Assembly: GCA_036567965.1 (NCBI GenBank)
Contig: DATCTN010000027.1
Span: 62,001 to 126,000 of the forward strand
Length of the DNA: 64,000 nt
Direction: 5' to 3'
Source of the DNA: Candidatus Kryptoniota bacterium
GTDB taxonomy: Bacteria > Bacteroidota > Ignavibacteria > Kryptoniales > JAKASW01
Shown here piece after piece: positions 5,310 through 18,269 of the stretch. The notes beneath the pieces are model-generated. The model did no database searches. It was not told where the DNA came from and was given only the letters and a program-made list of their open reading frames with translations. Position 1 is the stretch's first letter; each line of letters starts with the position of its first letter. The position numbers were made by a program, and so were the translations under genes.

Positions 5310-7016
5310 GTGAGGCGGGCCGTTAAGTTCCTGAAACTGATTCAGCTGGACGGAGCGCCGGTCAAACTTAGGTATGCAAATATGCCCAGACATCTTTCTC
5401 TCCAGATAATCCTGTCGCTCACGGTAATTGTCGTCGTCGTCGAGGGTGTCTCCGGTTACATAAGTCTGAAGAACCAGGAAAGGCAGATCCTCCAGGCTAT
5501 GATAAACGGGGCGGATCAGCTGTCGCGTGGGATAACGAGTGCGACATGGCACGCGATGCTTGCTGATGACAGGAGCTCGTCGTACCAGGTCATGCAGACA
5601 ATCGCCTCAAATCCGGGGATCATCAGGATACGTATCTTCAACCGGGAAGGCCGGGTCATGTTCTCGACCAAACCCGAAGATTCGAAGCAGGTTGATAAAG
5701 GTGCTGAGGCATGCGCCATGTGTCATTCGTCGACCGAGCCGCTCGTAAACATCGATGCTTCCTCAAGGGCTCGAGTCATGCCCTCAACCGGGAACGGGAG
5801 GCAGCTCGCACTGGTAACCCCCATTTATAACGAGCCTGCGTGCAGCAACGCCGTTTGTCACGCTCATCCGGCCTCAACTAGTGTGCTCGGTGTCCTCGAC
5901 GTCGCCTTCGACCTGAAACCGCTCGACAGCGAGATGGATGCGGCACGGGCGGGAGTACTTGTCGTAGCGGCCATCCAGATTCTCTTCATTGGATTATTTA
6001 TCGTGTTCTTCACGAAACGTTTTCTCGATAGGCCGATTCACAAACTGATCGCAGGAACGCATGCCGTAAGCGAGATGCAGCTCGATCAGAAGATAGAGAT
6101 CAATTCAAGTGTGGAGCTGGGTGAACTTGCGCGCTCGTTCAATCTGATGAGCTCTCGGCTGGGCAAGGCGATGGGCGACCTTAACGATGCCGCCGAGATT
6201 CTGGAGAAGAAAGTGGACGAACGTACCCGCCAGCTCGAGATCGCCCACAAGAAACTTCTCCAGAGCGATCGGCTGGCGTCTCTCGGCCAGCTGTCCGCGA
6301 CTGTCGCTCACGAAATTAACAATCCGATTTCCGGTGTGCTCAATCTTGCGATGCTGCTCGAGAGGATACTTAAGGATGACGGCGTACCGAAGGAACGCAT
6401 CGACGAGTTCAGGAAATATCTGGGGGAGATTGTAAGAGAAACGGCGAGGGTGGGGCGCATAGTAACCGATCTCCTGGCGTTCTCTCGAAGATCGAAACCG
6501 CAAAGCGCAAATGTTGATCTGAACGGCGTCATTAGAAACACAATGCGACTTCTCAGTCACCGCCTCGAGATGGGGAACATCAAGCTGACACTTTGTCTTG
6601 CGGATAACCTTCCGAAAATTGAATGCGACGTTTCCCAAATGCAGCAGGTAATAATCAATCTGATAATGAACGCCGCGGAAGCCTGCGCCGCTACAGGCGT
6701 CGGCGAAGTAAACGTGGCGACGAGGGAGGAAGCAGACTCGGTAGTGCTAGAGGTTTCCGACAACGGTGAAGGAATACCGAAGGAAATACTTCCGAAAATC
6801 TACGATCCATTCTTTACCACGAAAGGCGAGGGAAAAGGCGTCGGGTTGGGACTATCGGTGGTATACGGTATCGTCGATGCTCACAACGGAGACATCGAGG
6901 TGAAAAGCGATGTCGGAAAGGGGGCCGTCTTCAAGGTCACATTGCCTGTACGTCGAGCTGCTGTGGAGAGCGGAAATAGTTCTGATGCAAACGGCGGCAA
7001 TGGGACCTCCGCTTAG
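5310..7016 (+). CDS. Membrane sensor histidine kinase with heme-c-type motifs in its sensor domain
   Basis: Order from the N-terminus: transmembrane helix (about residues 29-50); periplasmic sensor with CAMCH at 135-139 and a longer-spaced CSNAVCH at 178-184 followed by AHP; second helix (214-234); HAMP region; coiled-coil linker; HisKA with the phospho-acceptor in SATVAHEINNPISG; and a HATPase with DNGEGIPKEI, FFTTKGEGKGVGLGLS boxes. CxxCH motifs in the periplasmic part suggest covalent heme and redox sensing; kinases with this sensor layout recur in Deltaproteobacteria-like genomes (family knowledge). It leads a + strand run with an archaemetzincin and an NtrC-type regulator, its probable partner. 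The start is uncertain: GTG 5310 or ATG 5382 both keep the first helix. Confidence 0.88.
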   Translation: MRRAVKFLKLIQLDGAPVKLRYANMPRHLSLQIILSLTVIVVVVEGVSGYISLKNQERQILQAMINGADQLSRGITSATWHAMLADDRSSSYQVMQTIASNPGIIRIRIFNREGRVMFSTKPEDSKQVDKGAEACAMCHSSTEPLVNIDASSRARVMPSTGNGRQLALVTPIYNEPACSNAVCHAHPASTSVLGVLDVAFDLKPLDSEMDAARAGVLVVAAIQILFIGLFIVFFTKRFLDRPIHKLIAGTHAVSEMQLDQKIEINSSVELGELARSFNLMSSRLGKAMGDLNDAAEILEKKVDERTRQLEIAHKKLLQSDRLASLGQLSATVAHEINNPISGVLNLAMLLERILKDDGVPKERIDEFRKYLGEIVRETARVGRIVTDLLAFSRRSKPQSANVDLNGVIRNTMRLLSHRLEMGNIKLTLCLADNLPKIECDVSQMQQVIINLIMNAAEACAATGVGEVNVATREEADSVVLEVSDNGEGIPKEILPKIYDPFFTTKGEGKGVGLGLSVVYGIVDAHNGDIEVKSDVGKGAVFKVTLPVRRAAVESGNSSDANGGNGTSA

Positions 7017-7022
7017 CTATCC

Positions 7023-7625
7023 ATGGGTTCGATCTATTGTGTGCCGGTAGGGAATGTGAATAAAGATATGATCACAATGGCAGAGCGATACCTGAACGGC
7101 ATGTTCGGAATGCACGTAGAGTCTTGCAGCCCAATGCCTGATCCTTTATTTGCTCTCGACGAAAAGAGGAAGCAATATAGCTCGACTCTGATACTCCGTA
7201 AACTCGCCGAACGCCGCGATGACCGTGCCGTTAGGTACCTTGGCCTGACCGAACTGGATCTTTACATACCCATGCTTACTTTTGTGTATGGTCAGGCGCA
7301 GCTTTCCTTACCGACCGATCCTGTGTTCGCCCACGGGAGAGTCGCCGTCGTATCGCTTGCTAGACTCGCGCCGGAATTTTATGAGCTACCACCGGATAGA
7401 GATCTGACGGCGAGAAGGGCAAGGAAGGAAATTGCGCACGAGATCGGACACACGCTCGGTCTGGTACACTGTGGAAATCGGTCCTGCCTCATGTCGCTTG
7501 CCACTGAAATACTCGAGCTTGATATGAAATCTCAGGATTTTTGCCGGGACTGCTGGAACAAGTTGCAGGAAAATTTGACGTTACTTGGAGCGGAAACAAA
7601 TCACCGTGAGAATTTGGAGTCTTGA
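7023..7625 (+). CDS. amzA: Archaemetzincin-family zinc metalloprotease
   Basis: A 200-residue protein with the archaemetzincin zinc signature HEIGHTLGLVHC (residues 139-150), then C155, the met-turn M157, and a second zinc-site pair C174/C177 (CRDC). The known family motif is HExxHxxGxxHCxxxxCxM followed by CxxC, and all ligands are present. No signal peptide is seen, so it is probably cytoplasmic. Its physiological substrate cannot be read from sequence. It is placed six bases after the histidine kinase and one base before the response regulator, so the three are almost certainly co-transcribed. A protease inside a two-component operon is unusual. Confidence 0.9.
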   Translation: MGSIYCVPVGNVNKDMITMAERYLNGMFGMHVESCSPMPDPLFALDEKRKQYSSTLILRKLAERRDDRAVRYLGLTELDLYIPMLTFVYGQAQLSLPTDPVFAHGRVAVVSLARLAPEFYELPPDRDLTARRARKEIAHEIGHTLGLVHCGNRSCLMSLATEILELDMKSQDFCRDCWNKLQENLTLLGAETNHRENLES

Positions 7626-7626
7626 T

Positions 7627-8985
7627 ATGAAAACGCAATGGGAAATACTGGTTGTGGATGACGAAGAAGTAATGAGAGAGTCTCTGGTCGCATGGCTCCG
7701 CGAAGACGGTTACGGTGTCGACTCCGCAGCGTCAGGTAAGGCAGCTATCGATAAGTCTAATGAAAAAGATTATGCCATCTATTTCGTAGATCTCAAAATG
7801 CCGGGCGGTATCGATGGTATCGAGACCATGATGGAGATCAGGAAGATGCATCCCGACGCTTCGATCATAATCATAACGGCGTATGCCACGGTAGATACTG
7901 CAATACTCGCCATGAAAGAAGGTGCCCAGGAATATATTGTCAAGCCGTGTAACCCCAAAGAGATTTCCATCCTGGTCGAACGGATAATAAAAGTCAAGAA
8001 TCTTCAGCGAGAGAATTTGATTCTCCGCAAAAGACTCACGGGTCAATACAGTTTCCACGACATAATAAGTAAAAATTCAAGGATGAGAGAAATTTTCCAG
8101 CTCGTTCAGGAAATCGCGAGTCTGAGAAGTACCGTCTTAATCCAGGGAGAAAGCGGAACGGGGAAGGAGCTCGTTGCGCGTGCGATCCATTATTCCGGTG
8201 AGCGGGCCTCGAAGCCATTCGTTGGCGTTTCATGTGCAGCACTCGCCGAGACGCTTCTTGAATCGGAGCTGTTCGGGCACGAGAGGGGTTCGTTTACAGG
8301 CGCATTGTCACAGAAGAAAGGAAAATTCGAGCTCGCTGACGGCGGCACAATTTTCCTCGACGAGATTGGAGACGTCTCGCCGAAACTGCAGCTCGATCTC
8401 CTTCGCGTGCTCCAGGAAAAGTGCTTTTATCGCGTCGGAGGGACTGAAGAACTCAACGTGGACGTAAGAGTGATCGCTGCGACAAATCTTGACCTCGATG
8501 AGGCGGTCAGGTCGGGGAATTTCCGCGACGATCTGTACTATCGTCTCAATGTCATCAACATTCAAATCCCGCCTCTCAGATCCAGACGTGAAGACATACC
8601 CCTCCTCGCCCGGAGTTTCGCGGAGAGGATATCGCACGAACTAGGGAAGGAAATCGATGACATCTCTGAATCCGGTCTGAAAGTTCTAATGGATTACAAC
8701 TGGCCCGGAAATGTCAGGGAACTTGAGAACTCGATCGAGCGCGCGATCGTCACCAGCAGGAACCGGCTTTTGACCGAAGAAGATTTCGAGTTCATGAAGG
8801 AAAACGGATCAAGAAATCATTCGTGGATGGCGCCGGATAATATCTCTCTCGAAGAAATGGAGAAACAGGTTATCGAGGCGACGATCAGGCGAACCGGAGG
8901 CAACATAAAAGAGGCGGCATCCATTCTCTGCATCGATAGATCAACTCTCTACGAAAAGATCAAGAGATATGCGATAGAGAGGTAG
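7627..8985 (+). CDS. NtrC-family sigma-54-dependent response regulator
   Basis: A 452-residue activator. The receiver domain has acidic D11/D12, phospho-acceptor D55 in VDLKMPGG and K106. The AAA+ domain has Walker A GESGTGKE, the sigma-54 contact loop GSFTGA, Walker B IFLDEIGDVS and an arginine-rich sensor region. A C-terminal Fis-type helix-turn-helix covers GGNIKEAASILCIDRSTLYEKI. It should activate sigma-54 promoters when phosphorylated by the kinase two genes upstream. ATG 7627 is chosen because TTTGGAG lies at the proper distance; an in-frame start at 7585 would overlap the protease. The convergent quinone-reductase operon carries a matching candidate promoter at 16279-16292. Confidence 0.95.
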   Translation: MKTQWEILVVDDEEVMRESLVAWLREDGYGVDSAASGKAAIDKSNEKDYAIYFVDLKMPGGIDGIETMMEIRKMHPDASIIIITAYATVDTAILAMKEGAQEYIVKPCNPKEISILVERIIKVKNLQRENLILRKRLTGQYSFHDIISKNSRMREIFQLVQEIASLRSTVLIQGESGTGKELVARAIHYSGERASKPFVGVSCAALAETLLESELFGHERGSFTGALSQKKGKFELADGGTIFLDEIGDVSPKLQLDLLRVLQEKCFYRVGGTEELNVDVRVIAATNLDLDEAVRSGNFRDDLYYRLNVINIQIPPLRSRREDIPLLARSFAERISHELGKEIDDISESGLKVLMDYNWPGNVRELENSIERAIVTSRNRLLTEEDFEFMKENGSRNHSWMAPDNISLEEMEKQVIEATIRRTGGNIKEAASILCIDRSTLYEKIKRYAIER

Positions 8986-9004: not shown

Positions 9005-9847
9005 CTACGGTTCGAGAAACATTTCCCCGAGCACCGAGTCCCAGTTTATGCCGGGGTATTCGCGAGGCAGATCGTTCATAAGTTCACCTCCGTCTGCAAG
9101 GCTTGATCCCACCTTCTCATTTGCGAAAGCCGCCTCGAGTCTCTCGATTTCTCTTAAGATCCAGGGCCTGATCTCACATCCCTTGAGAAGATGACGAAGA
9201 TCGGCGATGCCGTCGGGCTTCACTTTAAGGTAGTAGCTATCTTCGTCCCCGCCCGTCGCCACGACTTTTCCATCCACCGGTGAAAGGATTCGTATCCTTG
9301 CCCCGGCTTTCTCTAAATGCCAGCCCGTTCCGTTCACTTCCAGCTCGGTGCCTATTTCGGGAAGCTCTACACTGTCGGGATTACCGAGAATCTTCTTTCC
9401 AAAGTCGTCGAGACCGACAGATAGCATACCGTCAGATTCACATTTCACCCACGCATGCCCCCGGTGATACATCCTGTCTTGAGGCATATTCAACCCGAAT
9501 ATTTTGGACTCGCCCGGACCGACCCCGGTTATCGACGCGTGACTGACAGCTCTTTCAGCGGCGAGCGACGGATGCAGATCGCAAACGCGACAGTCGAAAC
9601 CGTTTGGGCATTTCCTGTTTGTTATTTCTCCCGTCAACACGTGCCTGCAGATCCTGGCGCGATCTGAAAGGTCATTGAATTCGTCGTGCCACTTCAGCTC
9701 GTCGACCTGTCTGGCGGTCATTTTGCGCGATGCGCATATGCTTGCCGTGGCGAGAGCGGTGAGAATTACTATTACCACCGAAAAGAATATTGAAAGGAAA
9801 ATTATGTTGCCTGCGTCCCACGTAAATCCGTAAACCCACGGAAACAT
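9005..9847 (-). CDS. Membrane-anchored Cys-rich protein with degenerate GcvH-like domain
   Basis: A 280-residue protein: one TM helix (about 13-36), a cysteine cluster (C67, C80, C86, C89), then a glycine-cleavage H-like domain (about 125-225) opening with YHRGHAWV, where GcvH has YTxEHEWV, and containing LSPVDGKVVATG, which matches the SPVSGEV strand of GcvH. At the position of the lipoylated lysine (ESVKA in GcvH) the sequence reads EKAGA, so glycine falls where the lysine should be and lipoylation is unlikely. It is the last gene of the Qrc-like operon, 119 bases after the NrfD-type subunit. It may be an accessory or electron-transfer partner of that complex; it is not a glycine-cleavage component, since no gcvP is present. 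Confidence 0.75.
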   Translation of the reverse strand: MFPWVYGFTWDAGNIIFLSIFFSVVIVILTALATASICASRKMTARQVDELKWHDEFNDLSDRARICRHVLTGEITNRKCPNGFDCRVCDLHPSLAAERAVSHASITGVGPGESKIFGLNMPQDRMYHRGHAWVKCESDGMLSVGLDDFGKKILGNPDSVELPEIGTELEVNGTGWHLEKAGARIRILSPVDGKVVATGGDEDSYYLKVKPDGIADLRHLLKGCEIRPWILREIERLEAAFANEKVGSSLADGGELMNDLPREYPGINWDSVLGEMFLEP

Positions 9848-9966
9848 TTTACCCTCGATGTGATTTGTTATTAGGAAATGACATCTTCTATCTTGCGTTC
9901 ACTCCGTAAACACCTTTGCTTTTGACCTGTATCTCTGACTTCTGTTTTTTGAATTTTGAGATCTCA

Positions 9967-11193
9967 TCAGTTCAGTTTCGTCTCCTCCGGAAATAATCTC
10001 AGGTACCTGAATGAAAATGAATAGACGAGGACACCGTACGCAACAACGAATAGAAATGTGGCCACTTCCTGCCAGCTGGGGGAATAAAGCATGAACTTGT
10101 CGAAAGGAAGTGTCGGGACTGCTAGAGTCTGTATCGTCATGACAAACCTGTTCACCAGAATTCCGCAGCAGACGAGAATCGATCCGAATACGAGCCACCT
10201 TACATCAAGTCGCTTGTTGCCGGTGAGGAAGAGAATCGACGGAACGAAACCGAATGCGATTATCTCCGTGAACAATATCCAGATGCTGAACGGCTTCCGT
10301 TCAAAGAAACCGATCGCGGACAATCCGAGCGCGGGCGCGGTGCCGTTTATCCAGAAAAGGGTGTCCATAGATTTCAGGAGAACATAGAAAAGAAGTATTC
10401 CTCCTGATATCCTGGCGAGCAGGCGGAACACTTCCTCTGTGACAAGCCGTTTCCCGCTGAGCTTTGACACGATCCATGTTGTCAGGAGAATGAAGCTTGG
10501 TCCGGCTGCTGCCGCTGAAATGATAAACAGAAAAAACGTCGTGGGCCAGATCGCAATGCTCTCTCTGAACGCAAAGGGGCGACCTTGCAAAACGCCGTAC
10601 AGTCCACCGAGCGAACCCTGGTGGAAGAAAGATAGAAATGTACCGACGCCTGCAAACACAGGCATGACCTTATGAAGCTCGAATTCAAAAACCAGGAACG
10701 AAGGGATCTCTTTCAGTTTCCTGTTCTTGAAAACGAGAGGCGCATATTCGATCACGAGCACCGTAAGATAGCAGGTTATGCAGAATGTCACTTCGGTAAG
10801 CATCGAATGGACATTTGGATGCCAGAACGTGAACCATGCTCGCAGAGGTTGGCCGACATCGACACCGAGAATGAGCACGGCGCCGCTATAGCAGATGAGT
10901 CCAAGGACCACCGCGCTGTTTATGACCGCCCTCAGCTGATGTTTCCTCAGGATGTACAAAAGAAAACCGGTGAAGAACGCGCCGGCGCCGAGAGCGATTA
11001 CCGAAAGATCGAGAAAGATCCAGAGACCGAACGCAAATCGATTGTCCATGTTCGTTTGGTTGAGTCCCTTCGCGAGGCATAAGTATATTGCGTACATCCC
11101 GAGGGCAAGCAGCATTGTCCATGGGATTATCCAGTAAACAAATTTCCGGAAGGGAGCGCGATCGAGACCGCGAGCGACAAGTGAGCTATCCAT
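9967..11193 (-). CDS. qrcD: NrfD/PsrC-type membrane quinone-interacting subunit (QrcD-like)
   Basis: A 408-residue polytopic protein with about ten hydrophobic helices, matching the NrfD/PsrC family that binds menaquinone in the membrane. Conserved-looking polar points include the WFTFWHPNVHSM loop and FELHKVMPVFAG. The start overlaps the stop of the Fe-S subunit by eight bases, indicating translational coupling. In the Qrc complex of sulfate reducers and in alternative complex III, a protein of this kind passes electrons between a periplasmic Fe-S/cytochrome head and the quinone pool. The separate Mo-family and Fe-S subunits here fit Qrc better than ActB-type fusion. Family firm; qrc symbol by synteny. 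Confidence 0.82.
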   Translation of the reverse strand: MDSSLVARGLDRAPFRKFVYWIIPWTMLLALGMYAIYLCLAKGLNQTNMDNRFAFGLWIFLDLSVIALGAGAFFTGFLLYILRKHQLRAVINSAVVLGLICYSGAVLILGVDVGQPLRAWFTFWHPNVHSMLTEVTFCITCYLTVLVIEYAPLVFKNRKLKEIPSFLVFEFELHKVMPVFAGVGTFLSFFHQGSLGGLYGVLQGRPFAFRESIAIWPTTFFLFIISAAAAGPSFILLTTWIVSKLSGKRLVTEEVFRLLARISGGILLFYVLLKSMDTLFWINGTAPALGLSAIGFFERKPFSIWILFTEIIAFGFVPSILFLTGNKRLDVRWLVFGSILVCCGILVNRFVMTIQTLAVPTLPFDKFMLYSPSWQEVATFLFVVAYGVLVYSFSFRYLRLFPEETKLN

Positions 11194-12013
11194 TTTCGCT
11201 GTCCTTCCTCACAAGTCCGCTTTTGCCGAACTTTCGAACCCATTCTCTCTCTGAGTGAAAATAAACCTTTGGGCCGGTTCCCAGGTTTTCCAGAAGCCTG
11301 AAACTATTCCGATCCTGTGATATCTTCGCCGCCTCAGAACTTTCGTCCAGGAGATCGCCGAACGTTATTGCGCCCACCGGACATGCTTCGACACAAGCCG
11401 GCACATAGTCCCGCGGATCTATTTCCGATTTTCCCTCAACTGCCGCCTTCTCCCGCGCTGCTTGCAAACGATGGAAACAGAAGTTGCATTTCTCCACGAC
11501 GCCTCTCATTCGCGGGGAAACATCTGGATTCAACGTCTTCACCGTTTCTCCAGGCCATGTCGGATCCCACCAGTTGAAAAACCGCGCATGATATGGACAT
11601 GCCGTCATGCAGTAACGGCAGCCCAGGCATCTCACCGGAATCTGTCCGACGATCCCTGTCGCCTCGTCGACCTCAACCGCTTTCTGCGGGCAGACCGACA
11701 CGCATGGTGTGTGGTGTTCGCATTGCTGGCACGATATCGGGAAGAAAACGGATTGTGTGTCAGGATATGGCAAACCGTTGTTCGCCCTGTAAACCCTGAT
11801 CGGAGTTATGCCGGTACGCTCGTTCGAGCTGATGGGACCAGGTGCGACGTTGTTCTCCACTGAGCACGCGACCATGCACGCACCGCAGCCAGTGCACAGG
11901 TCCACGTCGATGACCATCCCGTATCGGGATTTTCTATTTGTGAAGACTTTACCTCGTGCTTTTTGATTTTCATATGTTACGACGGGGTTATTTCCGCTCT
12001 TGTCGTTTTCCAT
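11186..12013 (-). CDS. qrcC: Four-cluster ferredoxin-like subunit (QrcC-like)
   Basis: A 275-residue Fe-S protein of the DmsB/NrfC/QrcC class. Four cysteine groups are visible: CTGCGACMVAC, CQQCEHHTPCVSVCP, CLGCRYCMTACP, and the split pair CNFC ... CVEACP. Each can ligate a 4Fe-4S cluster, giving an electron wire between the molybdopterin-family subunit and the NrfD-type membrane protein. There is no signal peptide; partners of this class are typically exported along with a Tat-signal subunit, here the preceding gene. It overlaps both neighbours (37 bases upstream, 8 downstream). Confidence 0.88.
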   Translation of the reverse strand: MENDKSGNNPVVTYENQKARGKVFTNRKSRYGMVIDVDLCTGCGACMVACSVENNVAPGPISSNERTGITPIRVYRANNGLPYPDTQSVFFPISCQQCEHHTPCVSVCPQKAVEVDEATGIVGQIPVRCLGCRYCMTACPYHARFFNWWDPTWPGETVKTLNPDVSPRMRGVVEKCNFCFHRLQAAREKAAVEGKSEIDPRDYVPACVEACPVGAITFGDLLDESSEAAKISQDRNSFRLLENLGTGPKVYFHSEREWVRKFGKSGLVRKDSENG

Positions 12014-14190
12014 GTCGAATCACTTTCTATTTTGCAGATGTCAAGGATTCCTTGTTCCGGTTGTCCTTCGATGCGCGTGAAGCTGCCCGGGCCAGGTCCC
12101 ACCGCGGCCTGAATTATCCCTGGCATGATGGATTCGTCGAACAAAACTATTACATCGATCTTTCCGGTTTGAGTCGTGATTGTAGCATTCCCGCCTTCGG
12201 CCAAGCTTTTCTCTATGCCGGTCCGAGGGTTTACCGAGGCGACTCTGTTAATCATTCTCAGGTCCGATTCTTTGAATATCTTACTCATGAGAGGATGAGA
12301 TTGACCGAATGAACCGGCTCCTTTCGAGCCGCAAGGCAGGAGTATTAATGATCGGTCAGACTTAGTGTCATTCATCTCATCGACGAGCCTCTTCAACTCT
12401 GCCTCCGGATCCTTCATGGTACTGCCCGGATTGCCCTGGTGCAGCTGAGAGTATTTAGGCTGCTCTTCATTTATCCAACAGCCCCCATTTGCTAGAACAC
12501 TCATGAACTTTTCAGAAGAAGCAAAAGCGCCGAGCTCGATGTTCTTACCTGAGGAGGCGTCGAACACGTTGCCGGCTTTCAGCTTAAAAATATTATCGGC
12601 GCGTTCTTTCAGCAGTACAGCCATCGAGCTATTTACCATCAGTTCGTCCGTTATTGGAATGGTGACTCCGGCTATACGCTTCAAGAATTCGAGAGGGTGA
12701 ATCGCCTTTTCAGGCGGCGTCAAGATCGGGATAGACAAGCTGTACGATGAATAAGGAAATCCTGCCGGAGTCGGCGAATCGGAATGCGTTTCCATGTTTG
12801 CCGGCGATGGAATTAGGTAATCCGCGTGAATCGCTGCTCCGGCAAGATGGGGGGAAAGACTGACCACGACCGGTCCGGTCGTCTGGAGTTTCTGTCGGAT
12901 CAGTGGCCAGGGTATAGCGTACCCCGACTCGGAGCCGTCCATAACTAGAATCTTTATAGAATGATCTGGAATCTTGGAGAGTAAAGTCTCCGCTGCCAGT
13001 TCCTTTTTCCACATGGCGGGGACGGGAACATTATTTCTTGGGATGATCGGTTTATTGTCTCCGACAGAGCCGAGGAGCAAATTCAAACTCATGAAAACCA
13101 ATTCCTCTGCTTCTCCAAACGGTCCTCCTCCAGGATCGCCGCTGAAAAGGACGAGAGACGGCTTGTTCTTCGCAAGTTCTCTCGCGACTTCAATAATCTT
13201 CCCGCCGGAGACACCCGTCGCGCCGGCAACCTCATCAGGTGTATATCGATCAATCGTGTCTACAAATGGCGACCCCGATGTGGTGCGACGATCTCGACTC
13301 ACACTTCCCAGTGGTTTAAAGTCGCAAAGTTTCTCTTCCTTCATTATGTGCATCAAACCGATCGCGAAGATGGCTTCCATCCCGGGCTTGACTGCTACCC
13401 ATTCGTCTGCGAGCTCAGCACTCCGTGACCTGGTCGACTCGACCTGTATCACTCTCAACGGATTCTTACTTCCCGCCGCATGTCTTCGAGTTAATTCTGA
13501 AGATTGTCCGGCCGTCCCCCAGCCATCGAGCACCGGCGTGCGGAAGCTGATGATCGTTCTCACGTTTCTCGTATCAATTCCGTACTCGTGACGACCGTGG
13601 CCAAGGATGCTATCGACAACACGCACAGGAACACCTTCATGCTGGTCGGGGACGACATACACACCGTTCGAGAATTTCGAAAGAAAATTCCTGTAGGCGT
13701 ATGAAATTGTCCTTTGCGGCCGCATGTCGAGAATTGCGATCGAACCGCCGGTTCTCCTGGAACTAAGAATCGCATTTGAGATCTCTGAAACAGATTCGTC
13801 GATAGTCAACGGAGCCGTTCTTGCTTCACCGTTCTCCATGATTCGTCTGAACGGCTGACGGAGTCTCGACGGGTGGAACGGAAGGAGGTGGCCTCCGAGC
13901 CCTATCGGGCACAGCGAGCCGCGGCTTAGAGGGTGCCGCGGAATCCCGGACAGACTGACAGGTTGATCTTCGACGCAGCGCGCGCGCAATCCACACGCTG
14001 CGGGACATAGTGTGCATGTGGTAAACCTGAAGTTTATTCTTCCGTTAGGCGGTGTGGGAGTCCATGACCAGTTCTGGGTCCACTTCGCGGAATCGTCAAG
14101 CACTTTCCAGGGAATCGGAGTGAACATCAATCCGACTGCCGAACCGCCGATAAGCTTCAGCCAATCTCTTCGCGTAAATCCATTGCTCAT
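11977..14190 (-). CDS. qrcB: Molybdopterin-oxidoreductase-family subunit with Tat signal (QrcB-like)
   Basis: A 737-residue protein starting with a twin-arginine signal (FTRRDWLKLIGGSAVG), so it is exported folded. An N-terminal cluster motif C59-x2-C62-x3-C66-x27-C94 is intact, as in catalytic molybdoenzymes with a proximal 4Fe-4S cluster. Later blocks such as SLVLFSGDPGGGPFGEAEE and the YLIPSPANMETHSDS region follow the layout of the family. Characterised QrcB and ActB proteins are cofactor-free scaffolds; whether this one binds molybdopterin cannot be decided by eye, and no molybdenum-cofactor genes are nearby. It lies between the multiheme cytochrome and the Fe-S subunit, the qrcABCD order. 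Confidence 0.82.
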   Translation of the reverse strand: MSNGFTRRDWLKLIGGSAVGLMFTPIPWKVLDDSAKWTQNWSWTPTPPNGRINFRFTTCTLCPAACGLRARCVEDQPVSLSGIPRHPLSRGSLCPIGLGGHLLPFHPSRLRQPFRRIMENGEARTAPLTIDESVSEISNAILSSRRTGGSIAILDMRPQRTISYAYRNFLSKFSNGVYVVPDQHEGVPVRVVDSILGHGRHEYGIDTRNVRTIISFRTPVLDGWGTAGQSSELTRRHAAGSKNPLRVIQVESTRSRSAELADEWVAVKPGMEAIFAIGLMHIMKEEKLCDFKPLGSVSRDRRTTSGSPFVDTIDRYTPDEVAGATGVSGGKIIEVARELAKNKPSLVLFSGDPGGGPFGEAEELVFMSLNLLLGSVGDNKPIIPRNNVPVPAMWKKELAAETLLSKIPDHSIKILVMDGSESGYAIPWPLIRQKLQTTGPVVVSLSPHLAGAAIHADYLIPSPANMETHSDSPTPAGFPYSSYSLSIPILTPPEKAIHPLEFLKRIAGVTIPITDELMVNSSMAVLLKERADNIFKLKAGNVFDASSGKNIELGAFASSEKFMSVLANGGCWINEEQPKYSQLHQGNPGSTMKDPEAELKRLVDEMNDTKSDRSLILLPCGSKGAGSFGQSHPLMSKIFKESDLRMINRVASVNPRTGIEKSLAEGGNATITTQTGKIDVIVLFDESIMPGIIQAAVGPGPGSFTRIEGQPEQGILDICKIESDSTWKTTRAEITPS

Positions 14191-14199
14191 CTGTGTCTC

Positions 14200-14844
14200 C
14201 TACTTATGGCAGTCGATGCAGCTGTCTTTGACGCCGCGCGCTTTATGACAGTTCGAACAGTCGTCCATCCTCATTCCGTGTGAAGGAGTATATGGTGCGT
14301 TAAGAAAATTCTGCCCGAAGACATCCAGGCTGTAGCCGCTGAGCCGGCTGAATCGCGCCGGTCTCAATTCATTCGTGCTCGAATGACCGAAGTGACAGGT
14401 CTGACATTTTATACCCGCCAGCTTTGTATGTGTCGCGTGGGAGAAATGCACGTTTTCGGGCTGGCGCGAATAAATCACCCAAGGGATCGCGCGACCTTTC
14501 CAGATGTATATATCGTCCAGCTTTCGGTCCTCGGGCGACACGCCCTGAGGGTGAGAATGACACTTCAGGCATTTATCCGTCGCAGGTATGCCGGCGAATC
14601 TTCCGTCAGCGTCGTAGGCATGACAATCCTCGCATTTCAGTGCTACGTTATCGCCCGTGTGGACTCGATGGCTGAACTGAAGCGGTTGTTTAACTTCCCT
14701 GTAAATCAAATATGGGAAAGTTACCCAGCCGAAGGACAAGGCGCAGGCGACACCGACCATGAAAAGAATTTTGCCGCGGCTTCCGGACTCCGGGTTTAAT
14801 CCGCCTTTCCCGGGAGAAGAAACCAAAGGGATGTTCTTCGACAT
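14200..14844 (-). CDS. qrcA: Membrane-anchored pentaheme cytochrome c (QrcA-like)
   Basis: A 214-residue protein with a single N-terminal TM anchor (about 27-47) and five CxxCH heme-c motifs at residues 71-75, 92-96, 147-151, 196-200 and 209-213. Several extra histidines (HFSHATH, HSHP, SHGMR) can serve as distal ligands. In Qrc, the QrcA cytochrome takes electrons from periplasmic cytochrome c3; the described version has six hemes, so this one has one CxxCH fewer. Its ATG overlaps the preceding stop by one base (TAATG), and it is followed after nine bases by qrcB. Confidence 0.88.
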   Translation of the reverse strand: MSKNIPLVSSPGKGGLNPESGSRGKILFMVGVACALSFGWVTFPYLIYREVKQPLQFSHRVHTGDNVALKCEDCHAYDADGRFAGIPATDKCLKCHSHPQGVSPEDRKLDDIYIWKGRAIPWVIYSRQPENVHFSHATHTKLAGIKCQTCHFGHSSTNELRPARFSRLSGYSLDVFGQNFLNAPYTPSHGMRMDDCSNCHKARGVKDSCIDCHK

Positions 14845-15818
14845 TATCTATTTTCCCATTTAATGTTCGGTGAAAAAAATTCGCTATAAAGAAGGAGAGC
14901 TTGCGCTTCGTCCAGATGTTTCATCGTGTCCCCGCCGAAGACTCCGCCGTCTGTCATCAACGAACTGTTGTTGTCGCTTCCCAGACTGCTTCTCTTTCTG
15001 GCGAATTCTGCAATGCGCAGGGAATCAGCACGCATCCACTCACGCGCTAATTTCCCGTGTATAAGGCCGGCCCTGGTGGGAGATTCTTCCTGTCCTTTGT
15101 CCCGGGCGAGCTCGGTTCCTTCGAACAGCCATCCGAAGGTGTAAGGATCGGTCACCACGCGCGACGGTTCAGCACGAAGATATGAATTCGTGGTGACGAT
15201 ATTCATCCTGTTGGGAAATACCATCGGGAAGTCGATTCCATTCGAAGTAACAACCGCACCGGGATAATGGTCGCCCGGCTCAGTCGTGAAGGACAGCCGC
15301 TCTATGCTCCCTAATACTTTCGCGAGGAAGGCGTCTACACCGACGTGACAAGTTCCCTCTTCGTTTATGTCGGCCCACATATGGTTCGGTGAGTAGTAAT
15401 GCCAACCTGTGGTCTGGATGCCGTCCACCAGCCACACGCTGTTTTCTGCATCGTCCGGGTCGAGCGATGGAAGCGCGGCGTCGTGCGATAGAATACGATT
15501 CGGATTGGAAATTGTCAGGAAAAGCTCGCAATAGTTGTGGCTTGACGTGCCGCATCGGGAAACGGCCGGATCCGAATATGGAACGAACTTCACGACGGAC
15601 GCAGCCGAGCAGTATTGAGCGAGCGATTCCTGGAGAAATGGGCAGCGTGATCCAGGCGGCTTTTCTTCCTGATGTTGTTTAGAAGCCGGGCATGTGATGA
15701 ACGCGGGCGAGGAACATCTTTCGTTCCCCGGATCGGTTTGGCCGCGCACAATCATCTTCCTGTATTCGGATGCGCAGCAGAACTTCACCTGAGCTTCCCT
15801 CAGGAATGGACACCTCAT
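14844..15818 (-). CDS. Protein with duplicated four-Cys module and degenerate GcvH-like domain
   Basis: A 324-residue protein. Two tandem modules each start with RCPFL and share cysteine spacing: C3-x10-C14-x20-C35-x7-C43 and C59-x10-C70-x18-C89-x7-C97. Each could bind an Fe-S cluster or zinc. Residues about 135-240 resemble the H protein of glycine cleavage (HYYSPNHMWADINEEGTCHVGVDAFLAKVLG against YTxEHEWVxxxxxxxxxGITxxAxxxLGD). The region where the lipoyl lysine should be reads FPMVFPNRMN, with no lysine. No signal peptide is evident. A GAGGAGG site precedes the ATG. It is the second gene of the Qrc-like operon, coupled to the cytochrome gene. A role in assembly or electron transfer is inference. 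Confidence 0.75.
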   Translation of the reverse strand: MRCPFLREAQVKFCCASEYRKMIVRGQTDPGNERCSSPAFITCPASKQHQEEKPPGSRCPFLQESLAQYCSAASVVKFVPYSDPAVSRCGTSSHNYCELFLTISNPNRILSHDAALPSLDPDDAENSVWLVDGIQTTGWHYYSPNHMWADINEEGTCHVGVDAFLAKVLGSIERLSFTTEPGDHYPGAVVTSNGIDFPMVFPNRMNIVTTNSYLRAEPSRVVTDPYTFGWLFEGTELARDKGQEESPTRAGLIHGKLAREWMRADSLRIAEFARKRSSLGSDNNSSLMTDGGVFGGDTMKHLDEAQALLLYSEFFSPNIKWENR

Positions 15819-15867
15819 GCCGCCTCCTCGGGGAACTCATGTGGTCTCTTCTTCTTCATGACGTTCT

Positions 15868-16164
15868 TCAATCTGCCGGATGCTTCTCGTGTGCCGCCTT
15901 ACCTCTAGCGGTATTGACTTCGCTGTCATCAATTACCGTAATCATCTCGTCGGCTTTGAACTTTCTCCCTCCGTCCGCCATTGTGACTCCGAGTCCGTCT
16001 GCGGAGAAGGCGTGGTCATCCGATTCGGCAGTTGCCTTGCTGCTTGCCCGCTGTCGTAATTCCCTGATCGCCGCATATCCGATTATTAACACGCACGCCA
16101 GTGTAATCAACCCGAGGACAAGATTGGTTACGTTTAACCAGAACACTTGATCGTAGCTGGACAC
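15868..16164 (-). CDS. Small membrane protein opening the Qrc-like operon
   Basis: A 98-residue protein starting at GTG 16164, chosen because a near-perfect AAAGGAGG (16171-16177) sits six bases upstream; the longer reading from ATG 16206 would bury that ribosome site. One TM helix (about residues 9-30, NLVLGLITLACVLIIGYAA), then a charged, soluble tail of about 65 residues with no cysteines. Not recognised as a known family. By position it is the promoter-proximal gene of the Qrc-like operon, 49 bases before the Cys-rich gene, and may be an accessory membrane subunit. Confidence 0.7.
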   Translation of the reverse strand: MSSYDQVFWLNVTNLVLGLITLACVLIIGYAAIRELRQRASSKATAESDDHAFSADGLGVTMADGGRKFKADEMITVIDDSEVNTARGKAAHEKHPAD

Positions 16165-16278
16165 GTTGAACCTCCTTTGATTTGAAAGACTCTGCCGGTG
16201 AAGCATTGCTGCGAGAATCTTCCGGGCTTGACTCGCTTGTTTTGCCTGCGTTATTTCACGCCGGCCTGATATTCTAGC

Positions 16279-16393: not shown

Positions 16394-16539
16394 GTGGGAT
16401 AATCGGACGGGCGAGTTGGAAAACGCCACACAATGAGGTCGACGGATCCGGCAAGGATACCGCAAAGGTAGGCCATCGCGTCTTCATTGATTCGAAATTC
16501 AGGTGATAATATATTTATCCGTGATTATTGGAGTTATGG

Positions 16540-17652
16540 ATGGGTCAAAACACACTGTCTGATATACATGCATCTCTGGGAGCTCGTCTGGTACAGGCCG
16601 ACGGAGTAACTCTTCCCGAGAAATACACAAGCGTAGAGCAGGAATACGAAACCGCGCATCATCACGCGGCATTCTTCGGCATTTCCCATTTCGGAAAACT
16701 GCGGCTTACGGGAAAGGATTCACTCGATCTCCTGAACAGGATCTCGACGAACGACCTGATGGGTCTCCGCCCGGGAATGGGCAAACCAACTTTTCTTGCG
16801 ACAGAGAAGGGGCGCATCGTGGATCTCTGCACTGTCTATGCTCAGCAGGGGAGCCTTCTTCTTCTCACAAGTCCTTCGAATTCGGAGAACGTCAGGAAGT
16901 GGATCGAGAAATTCATCATCTCGGAAGACGTGAAGGTCGAGGATGTCACGCATTATTTCCCGATGCTGTTCGTGGGTGGAGTTGAAGCGGCGAATTTTCT
17001 TACGCATCTCGCGCATTCCAGCTACAAACAGTTTCTCGATGTGAGCAAGATGCCGCGCCACAATTTCATCAGAACTTTTCTCGGCACGCATGAAGTCCTG
17101 CTTTCGAGGACCAACCTCGCGATGGGAAACGGCTACATCATTCTTGTGAATCCGGATGACATCGGCAAAGTGTGGACTTCGTTCGTGGAGAACTCGAAAT
17201 CGTTCGGCGCCGCTCCTGCAGGACTGGAAACATTTGAGATTCTGAGGATCGAAAACGGAACCCCGTTCTATCCGTATGAGCTCAACGAGGAACATAATCC
17301 ACTTGAAGTGAACCTGCTCGACGCTGTGAGTGACAACAAAGGATGTTATGTCGGACAGGAAGTCATCGCTCGACTCCAGACATACGATAAAGTCAGGAAG
17401 AGGCTGGTCGGTCTCGTCTCGACGTCGAATATGCCGCGCGGCTCGAAGGTCTACGAACCGCACGTCAATACTTCGGGCATGGAATCAGAGATCGGAATTA
17501 TTACCAGCTCAGCCAGATCTCCGGGAACCGGTAAGGAAATTGCCCTGGCTTATGTCTCAATGCAACAGGTGATTCCCGGTTCACGGTACTCGGTGAAAAT
17601 CGGCGGGAAGGATGTTGAAGCCGTCTTGTCGACACTCCCGTTTGCAATTTGA
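16540..17652 (+). CDS. ygfZ: YgfZ/GcvT-like folate-binding protein
   Basis: A 370-residue aminomethyltransferase-fold protein. It carries the YgfZ hallmark KGCYVGQEVIARLQTYDKV (about residue 267 on), with the reactive cysteine that distinguishes YgfZ from GcvT. YgfZ proteins use folate and help maintain certain Fe-S enzymes. ATG 16540 is preferred over TTG 16528 because the TTGGAG spanning the TTG is the ribosome site. It is divergent from the Qrc-like operon across a 375-base region; the pairing with an Fe-S-rich complex may be functional. A GcvT role is unlikely without gcvP. Confidence 0.85.
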   Translation: MGQNTLSDIHASLGARLVQADGVTLPEKYTSVEQEYETAHHHAAFFGISHFGKLRLTGKDSLDLLNRISTNDLMGLRPGMGKPTFLATEKGRIVDLCTVYAQQGSLLLLTSPSNSENVRKWIEKFIISEDVKVEDVTHYFPMLFVGGVEAANFLTHLAHSSYKQFLDVSKMPRHNFIRTFLGTHEVLLSRTNLAMGNGYIILVNPDDIGKVWTSFVENSKSFGAAPAGLETFEILRIENGTPFYPYELNEEHNPLEVNLLDAVSDNKGCYVGQEVIARLQTYDKVRKRLVGLVSTSNMPRGSKVYEPHVNTSGMESEIGIITSSARSPGTGKEIALAYVSMQQVIPGSRYSVKIGGKDVEAVLSTLPFAI

Positions 17653-17777
17653 TGTCCAGATTAATCGAAACTTCGTCCAAAGCCGGTTTTCGGAAATTGA
17701 AAATTTACGTCCGGAACAGCTCAAGAAGATTTGATATTGTTTCCAATCCGCGGTCAGGGAGAGATTTCAAATAGAAG

Positions 17778-18269
17778 ATGGAACAGCTGAAAGTATCGTC
17801 CGGGCTCGACAAAGCAGCGATGTATCATGAACTCCTTCCCCAGTTGAAATCGCTCGTCGAAGGCGAGGCAGACTCGACGGCGAATCTTGCCAACCTATCG
17901 GCCGCGCTTAAACAGTCGCTCCCCTACGCCTCGTGGGTCGGCTTCTATATTCTACGAGACGGTGAATTGGTAGTCGGACCGTTCCAGGGAAAAGTCGCAT
18001 GTACAAGAATAAAACTGGGTCACGGTGTGTGCGGGACATCCGCCTCGCGCGGGGAAACTCTGATCGTCCCGAACGTAAATGATTTTCCGGGGCACATTTT
18101 CTGTGACCCGGATTCGAAGAGCGAGATAGTCGTTCCGATCTTGAAGGACGGGAAAACAATCGGCGTTCTCGACATAGATAGTTCGACTTATGATTCGTTC
18201 GACCCGGTAGATGCTGAAAATCTGGAAACAATAGCGGAGCTTGTGGCAAAGGTAATTGATGGCAGTTAA
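17778..18269 (+). CDS. msrC: GAF-domain free methionine-(R)-sulfoxide reductase
   Basis: A 163-residue single GAF domain. The three cysteines of the fRMsr family are present (C75, C85 in GVCGTSAS, C109 in FPGHIFCDPDSKSEIVVP), as is the GVLDIDSSTYDSFD end. It should reduce free Met-R-sulfoxide with thioredoxin as donor, in the cytoplasm. Its last 11 bases overlap the next gene. Confidence 0.9.
   Translation: MEQLKVSSGLDKAAMYHELLPQLKSLVEGEADSTANLANLSAALKQSLPYASWVGFYILRDGELVVGPFQGKVACTRIKLGHGVCGTSASRGETLIVPNVNDFPGHIFCDPDSKSEIVVPILKDGKTIGVLDIDSSTYDSFDPVDAENLETIAELVAKVIDGS

Follow-up and report, generated by a model that had tools for sequence, protein, structure and literature searches.

A C-terminal motif of lipoate-free GcvH-like proteins and small membrane proteins accompanies archaemetzincin in a heme-kinase-linked respiratory gene module

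Introduction

PEP-CTERM/exosortase and GlyGly-CTERM/rhombosortase are pairs consisting of a C-terminal protein tag and a processing protease. Archaemetzincins, the peptidases of family M54, occur in archaea, bacteria and vertebrates. Here we analyse a 64,000-nucleotide stretch of DNA from a Candidatus Kryptoniota bacterium (contig DATCTN010000027.1, positions 62,001 to 126,000), hereafter the window, in which an archaemetzincin gene lies near an operon for a Qrc-type quinone-reducing complex. Three additional proteins encoded in this operon, two of them resembling the glycine cleavage H-protein (GcvH), share a motif near their C-termini, hereafter the tag, and the presence of this tag tracks that of M54 in most of the genomes compared. 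The natural substrates of archaemetzincins are described as unknown and the Methanopyrus kandleri enzyme showed no activity on standard substrates, while CarG, a Myxococcus M54 homologue in which the catalytic glutamate is replaced, acts non-proteolytically in transcriptional regulation (PMC3427221).

The operon itself is best compared with the QrcABCD menaquinone reductase of sulfate reducers, with which it shares subunits A to D in the same order. Unlike that system, the window adds to them a pair of GcvH-like proteins and a small membrane protein, and has a linked gene set for a histidine kinase, M54 and an NtrC-type response regulator. Our searches of NCBIfam and of the open-access PMC literature turned up neither the module nor the tag, and that literature yielded no link of an archaemetzincin to GcvH-like proteins, to the NrfD family of membrane subunits or to the motif.

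Results

The operon occupies positions 9005-16206 of the minus strand and consists of seven open reading frames (ORFs), four for the Qrc-type core and three extra, in the order small membrane protein, cysteine-rich GcvH-like protein, QrcA, QrcB, QrcC, QrcD and membrane-anchored GcvH-like protein. Three plus-strand genes (5310-8985) converge on it, with the M54 gene lying between the kinase and regulator genes. The histidine kinase (5310..7016, +) has HAMP, HisKA and HATPase domains and a sensor region with two heme-c sites, CAMCH at amino acid 135 and CSNAVCH at amino acid 178. The archaemetzincin (7023..7625, +) has an intact HEXXH motif and cysteine pattern and matches Pfam PF07998 (2e-22), NF033823 (150.8 bits, cut-off 145) and PDB entry 2x7m (E 3e-25). 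The NtrC-type regulator, which contains a GSFTGA loop, is encoded by an ORF at 7585..8985 (+) whose likely start is the ATG at 7627, directly after the M54 stop codon. An earlier note on this DNA, made from the letters alone, had described the seven-gene minus-strand operon and we found its ORFs in place; the boundary it gave, 16164, is an in-frame GTG inside the first ORF (15868-16206) and may be the start of that gene. Both the convergent genes and the common DGG motif had gone unnoticed.

All three extra proteins of the operon carry the tag. In the small membrane protein (15868..16206, −), which has a single helix and matches no known family, it reads LGVTMADGG (amino acids 72-80; 15967..15993, −). 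The upstream GcvH-like protein (14844..15818, −) has the core motif only, SLMTDGG (amino acids 286-292; 14943..14963, −), in a low-confidence loop ahead of the last helix, and the downstream GcvH-like protein (9005..9847, −) has VGSSLADGG (amino acids 246-254; 9086..9112, −), likewise in a loop ahead of the last helix. In the AlphaFold2 models of both GcvH-like proteins this exposed loop has lower confidence and connects a long helix to the final one. By the positive-inside rule the tag would probably lie in the cytoplasm.

The core of the tag is [LMA]-x-D-G-G. A preceding G-x-[TS] is usual in the membrane-anchored and HmcBC-type GcvH-like proteins and is not a feature of the upstream Qrc-type subgroup. 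The D-G-G lies about 30-40 residues before the C-terminus in the tails of all four GcvH-like subgroups, and its three residues are invariant in subgroup alignments whose mean column identity is 30-45%. Within M54 loci the tail motif was present in 86/89 GcvH-like proteins. The small membrane proteins, which show no recognisable homology to GcvH, have the form LG[IVL]T[ML]ADGG in 15 copies, a tally made by means of the motif itself; the protein of a same-genus relative (L182, 15528-15863) has DGR instead of DGG.

The extended motif G-x-[TSV]-[LMA]-x-DGG is rare outside these families: of 1,661 neighbouring ORFs only two contain it. Both encode membrane proteins, and in each the motif sits some 20 residues short of the C-terminus. 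One (L114) is a second kind of small membrane protein. The other (L283:6579-7925, Desulfuromonadales) is a major facilitator superfamily (MFS) transporter of the L-lactate (SfMCT) family that ends in LGLTMADGGEK plus a short tail; a tagged GcvH-like gene comes directly after it, and M54 is encoded on another contig of that genome (L125). The tag is therefore not confined to respiratory complexes, and it is common to non-homologous proteins, namely GcvH-like proteins, small membrane proteins and an MFS transporter. We rejected the possibility that the motif is a common chance word because of its scarcity in the other ORFs; a codon-restricted scan of this genome gave two more hits, both internal, in an asparaginase-like and a glycosidase-like protein. 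The DGG found in NtrC regulators and kinases was also rejected as an instance of the tag, as it sits in the AAA+ core or the kinase ATPase domain and is a general feature of those families; the extended motif occurred in 0/120 kinases and 0/123 regulators.

To examine the relationship between tag and M54, genome sets from three phyla were each searched both with GcvH profile A2 and for the M54 family, and the tail was read in the fetched loci. The comparison takes in only genomes whose loci were read, with weak CarG-like M54 matches (G523) scored as absent and the motif counted as DGG, or as DGA in five Acidobacteriota. Among genomes with the GcvH family, the motif was present in 43/44 with M54 and in 1/22 without it (Fisher p 5e-15, for genomes that are not independent of one another). 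In the lone M54-positive genome scored as lacking the motif, G532, a DGA variant is present that lies outside the test pattern.

The kinase-M54-NtrC set recurs as well. The genome studied here has two GcvH/NrfD sets. Each is accompanied by genes for an NtrC-type regulator, a histidine kinase with a pair of heme-c sites and one archaemetzincin, and no M54 genes beyond these two were found. In a search of 198 genomes of the phylum, M54 was found in 13 genomes of the same class, this one included, at 17 loci. A kinase and a regulator were present at 17/17 of these loci, and 14/17 also had a tagged GcvH-like gene beside NrfD; the M54-like genes in other classes of the phylum (L053-L057) had none of these neighbours. 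A scan of named genomes added 80 M54 loci from many phyla. With our own profiles, a kinase or regulator was detected at 81/96 M54 loci, a proportion that is not an unbiased estimate since the ranking of the named loci followed their similarity to the query. Both CxxCH and Cx4CH were present in 61/69 module kinases. An alignment of 17 M54 sequences showed H139, E140, H143, H149, C150, C155, M157, C174 and C177 to be invariant. The recurrence of the motif together with a heme-sensing two-component system and M54 in many phyla suggests that the motif is a target of the archaemetzincin. The relative L182 has a Qrc set without an adjoining M54 gene; its genome retains one M54 gene at the other set.

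Both GcvH-like proteins match Pfam GCV_H (37.4 and 25.4 bits, cut-off 22.2). They had been described as cysteine-rich and lacking the lipoyl lysine, and alignment with about 85 relatives bears this out: the lysine position is occupied by Gly in the downstream and Ser in the upstream protein, and a lysine there occurs in a few scattered relatives and is conserved in 0/4 subgroups. Eight invariant cysteines are distributed over the two N-terminal repeats of the upstream protein; the downstream protein has an N-terminal membrane helix followed by a four-cysteine segment ahead of its GcvH domain. The AlphaFold2 model of the downstream protein resembles H-protein folds, with 3ab9 as the best match (TM-score 0.77 by target length). 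A GCV_H search of the genome identified a true GcvH encoded elsewhere, as well as a second GcvH-like pair flanking HmcB/HmcC-like genes. A search of plasmids returned ordinary GcvH only.

Genomes that lack M54 often carry a sister system with iron-sulfur (FeS) and NrfD subunits, a 13-heme cytochrome, a heme kinase and two receiver-GcvH fusions, one of them membrane-anchored. Examples of sister operons, with receiver-GcvH fusions in which the lipoyl lysine is not conserved, are L168:2284-9428, L169-L172 and L176-L178. The fusions have no tag, and in three genomes that contain both systems they are untagged despite the presence of M54. In the sister system the GcvH-like domain takes the place of a response-regulator output, and this position is our main reason for regarding the GcvH-like proteins as regulators.

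Matches of NCBIfam Qrc models to all four core subunits bear out the complete qrcABCD-type set that had been described, three of them falling below the cut-off: the QrcD-type NrfD membrane subunit (9967..11193, −; 566.8 bits, cut-off 570), the QrcC-type iron-sulfur subunit (11186..12013, −; 352.6 bits, cut-off 400) and the QrcB-type molybdopterin-oxidoreductase-like subunit (11977..14190, −; 259 bits, cut-off 440). The QrcA-type multiheme cytochrome c (14200..14844, −), with five CxxCH motifs, exceeded it (183.9 bits, cut-off 180). DsrA was not found in a search of this genome, and the Qrc complex is therefore not one that serves dissimilatory sulfate reduction. Whereas the operon of sulfate reducers has four genes only, that of the window has three more. 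Of the Desulfobacterota Qrc loci that we examined, 18/18 have an operon made up of QrcABCD and nothing else, two of these loci containing just ORFs of 63-64 amino acids with marginal scores in addition; this set was reached via G209, and the set centred on G202 looks like Myxococcota, where L071 is filed. The Qrc operon of the Myxococcota genome G459 has a tagged downstream GcvH-like gene (L278:7992-8837) and no upstream GcvH-like gene, small membrane protein or kinase, and M54 was not detected.

NrfD genes adjoin the tagged GcvH-like genes in 12/12 genomes of the phylum that have them. Of 20 Acidobacteriota loci picked by GcvH alone, 11 contain NrfD, and some members of the kinase-regulator-M54 set are present in the majority. 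Tagged proteins without NrfD nearby were found at L060, L093 and L119. In several M54-positive genomes tagged GcvH-like genes lie away from NrfD, with unassigned genes as their neighbours (L242, L243, L244, L294 and L296), and other targets may be encoded there. The GcvH-like pair was considered and rejected as a Qrc-specific feature, since pairs of the same kind serve HmcBC/HybAB-type genes in this and many other genomes (L006 among them) and the tagged GcvH-like gene of L283 adjoins an MFS transporter. The second set of the present genome is of this type, its FeS and NrfD subunits matching HmcB and HmcC at 255.6 and 323.6 bits, below the cut-offs of 420 and 550.

The earlier note had placed the extra proteins outside the four-subunit core, which the bare Desulfobacterota operons support, and its worry that homologs might lie mostly away from NrfD is not borne out by the counts above, the link nonetheless not being absolute. 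From these counts and the 18 bare operons we conclude that the extra proteins are part of a regulatory module that mostly, though not invariably, accompanies an NrfD complex. The suggestion that they are new Qrc subunits or assembly factors holds in so far as they lie outside the known core and mostly beside NrfD; they are not specific to Qrc, and a regulatory role, rather than that of plain subunits or assembly factors, is suggested by the two-component system, the archaemetzincin and the sister system's receiver-GcvH fusions.

Sigma-54-like −24/−12 sites were found upstream of the related operons L049, L050, L060, L064 and L067, where they were equalled by 0/100 shuffles, and 12/19 upstream regions reached the best 10% of shuffles. 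Divergent from the window operon, at 16528-17652, is a gene that we take to be YgfZ/GcvT-like; L182 has a similar gene at 16854-17966.

Discussion

We propose that the locus encodes a redox-controlled respiratory module in which GcvH-like proteins act as regulators and M54 recognises, and probably cuts, their tag; we give this reading as a whole a probability of about 0.5, marginally on the favourable side of even. The heme-c kinase would sense the redox state of the periplasm and, via the NtrC-type regulator, switch on an NrfD quinone-reducing complex together with its tagged regulators, the complex being of the Qrc type here and of the HmcBC type in the second set. The two lipoate-free GcvH-like proteins and the small membrane protein would sit on the cytoplasmic face of the complex as post-translational regulators. 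In all three the tag, [LM]-x-D-G-G and in most relatives lengthened to G-x-[TS]-[LM]-x-D-G-G, lies on an exposed linker. The archaemetzincin, made together with the two-component system, would recognise the tag and most likely cut there, and the cut may free or inactivate the tail and so switch or turn over the assembly of regulator and complex.

Several observations weigh against this proposal. CarG provides a precedent for an M54 homologue that is non-proteolytic, its catalytic glutamate being changed (PMC3427221). A tagged GcvH-like gene is present in the Qrc operon of G459, in which no M54 was detected, and the M54-containing genomes G184 and G240 show no tagged GcvH-like protein. Archaeal and Chloroflexota M54 loci have no kinase or regulator, and the module is absent there. 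On a tree built from few columns and with weak forks, tag and M54 changed jointly only about two independent times, and an independent-pairs sign test was not significant. Finally, the window operon has only a weak sigma-54-like site, and neither a strict consensus nor the shuffled-score test gave a result there; the probable control of this operon by the adjacent NtrC-type regulator is thus inferred from its relatives.

We considered three other explanations. The GcvH-like and small membrane proteins could be extra structural subunits or assembly factors of Qrc and Hmc complexes, with the tag as a subunit contact and M54 linked only through the regulator operon. The tight packing of the operon and the adjacency of NrfD in 12/12 genomes of the phylum agree with such a role, yet the sister system has FeS and NrfD subunits, a kinase and a GcvH pair with neither tag nor M54, tagged proteins occur without NrfD nearby (the three loci named above and 9/20 Acidobacteriota loci) and one tagged gene adjoins an MFS transporter. 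We consider this explanation unlikely, although it is the alternative that we take most seriously. Less likely again is that M54 binds the tag without cutting it, as a zinc-bound scaffold or anti-regulator that docks the GcvH-like proteins to the two-component system. Both CarG and the inactivity of the M. kandleri enzyme on standard substrates favour this idea (PMC3427221), but HEXXH retains its catalytic glutamate in 87/87 module-locus M54 proteins with a readable motif. It is also conceivable that the tag serves another purpose, as a modification site, a binding site for the kinase or an adaptor, or a general degron, and tracks M54 through joint inheritance alone. The small number of independent changes on the tree and the tag kept in G459 fit with this; on the other hand, the sister system keeps the kinase without a tag, and in G430, where M54 was not found, the motif has decayed to DGQ, though that assembly may be incomplete. 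We regard this last explanation as improbable.

A wider proposal is that M54 and the tag work as a tag-protease pair of general use in the cytoplasm of bacteria from many phyla; we advance it more tentatively, as falling somewhat short of an even chance. M54 would recognise and cut the C-terminal G-x-T-[ML]-x-D-G-G and thereby couple a heme redox sensor to respiratory and transport complexes; GcvH-like regulators, small membrane proteins and at least one lactate-type MFS transporter would then be the first natural M54 substrates. If the tag is the target of M54, the archaemetzincin substrate question reduces to a peptide-cleavage assay, and if M54 acts on it the pair would constitute a new tag-protease system. 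The proposed module would also mean that NrfD-type complexes are subject to a new form of post-translational control, with GcvH folds acting as signalling outputs rather than lipoate carriers, by way of receiver domains in one system and of a tag with its protease in the other.

Every part of the module belongs to a known family, and as a whole it is a variant of NrfD-type respiratory modules. Like GcvH, the window proteins have the H-protein fold and a family match, albeit a weak one; they differ from it in the absence of a conserved lipoyl lysine, in scores far under the gcvH equivalog cut-off and in their added membrane, cysteine-rich and tail segments. The second set has its FeS and NrfD subunits in common with HmcBC/HybAB-type modules, but it is flanked by tagged GcvH-like proteins and lacks the hexadecaheme HmcA. 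The window M54 protein is related to known archaemetzincins by a family match over the cut-off, the zinc motif and its PDB relatives, and is set apart from them by its linkage to a two-component system and a tagged membrane module. As in the PEP-CTERM/exosortase and GlyGly-CTERM/rhombosortase pairs, a short C-terminal signal occurs on unrelated proteins, and it appears to track one protease. In contrast to those pairs, the tag described here is probably cytoplasmic and is followed by no membrane anchor, and the enzyme that would cut it is a soluble metzincin rather than a membrane protein.

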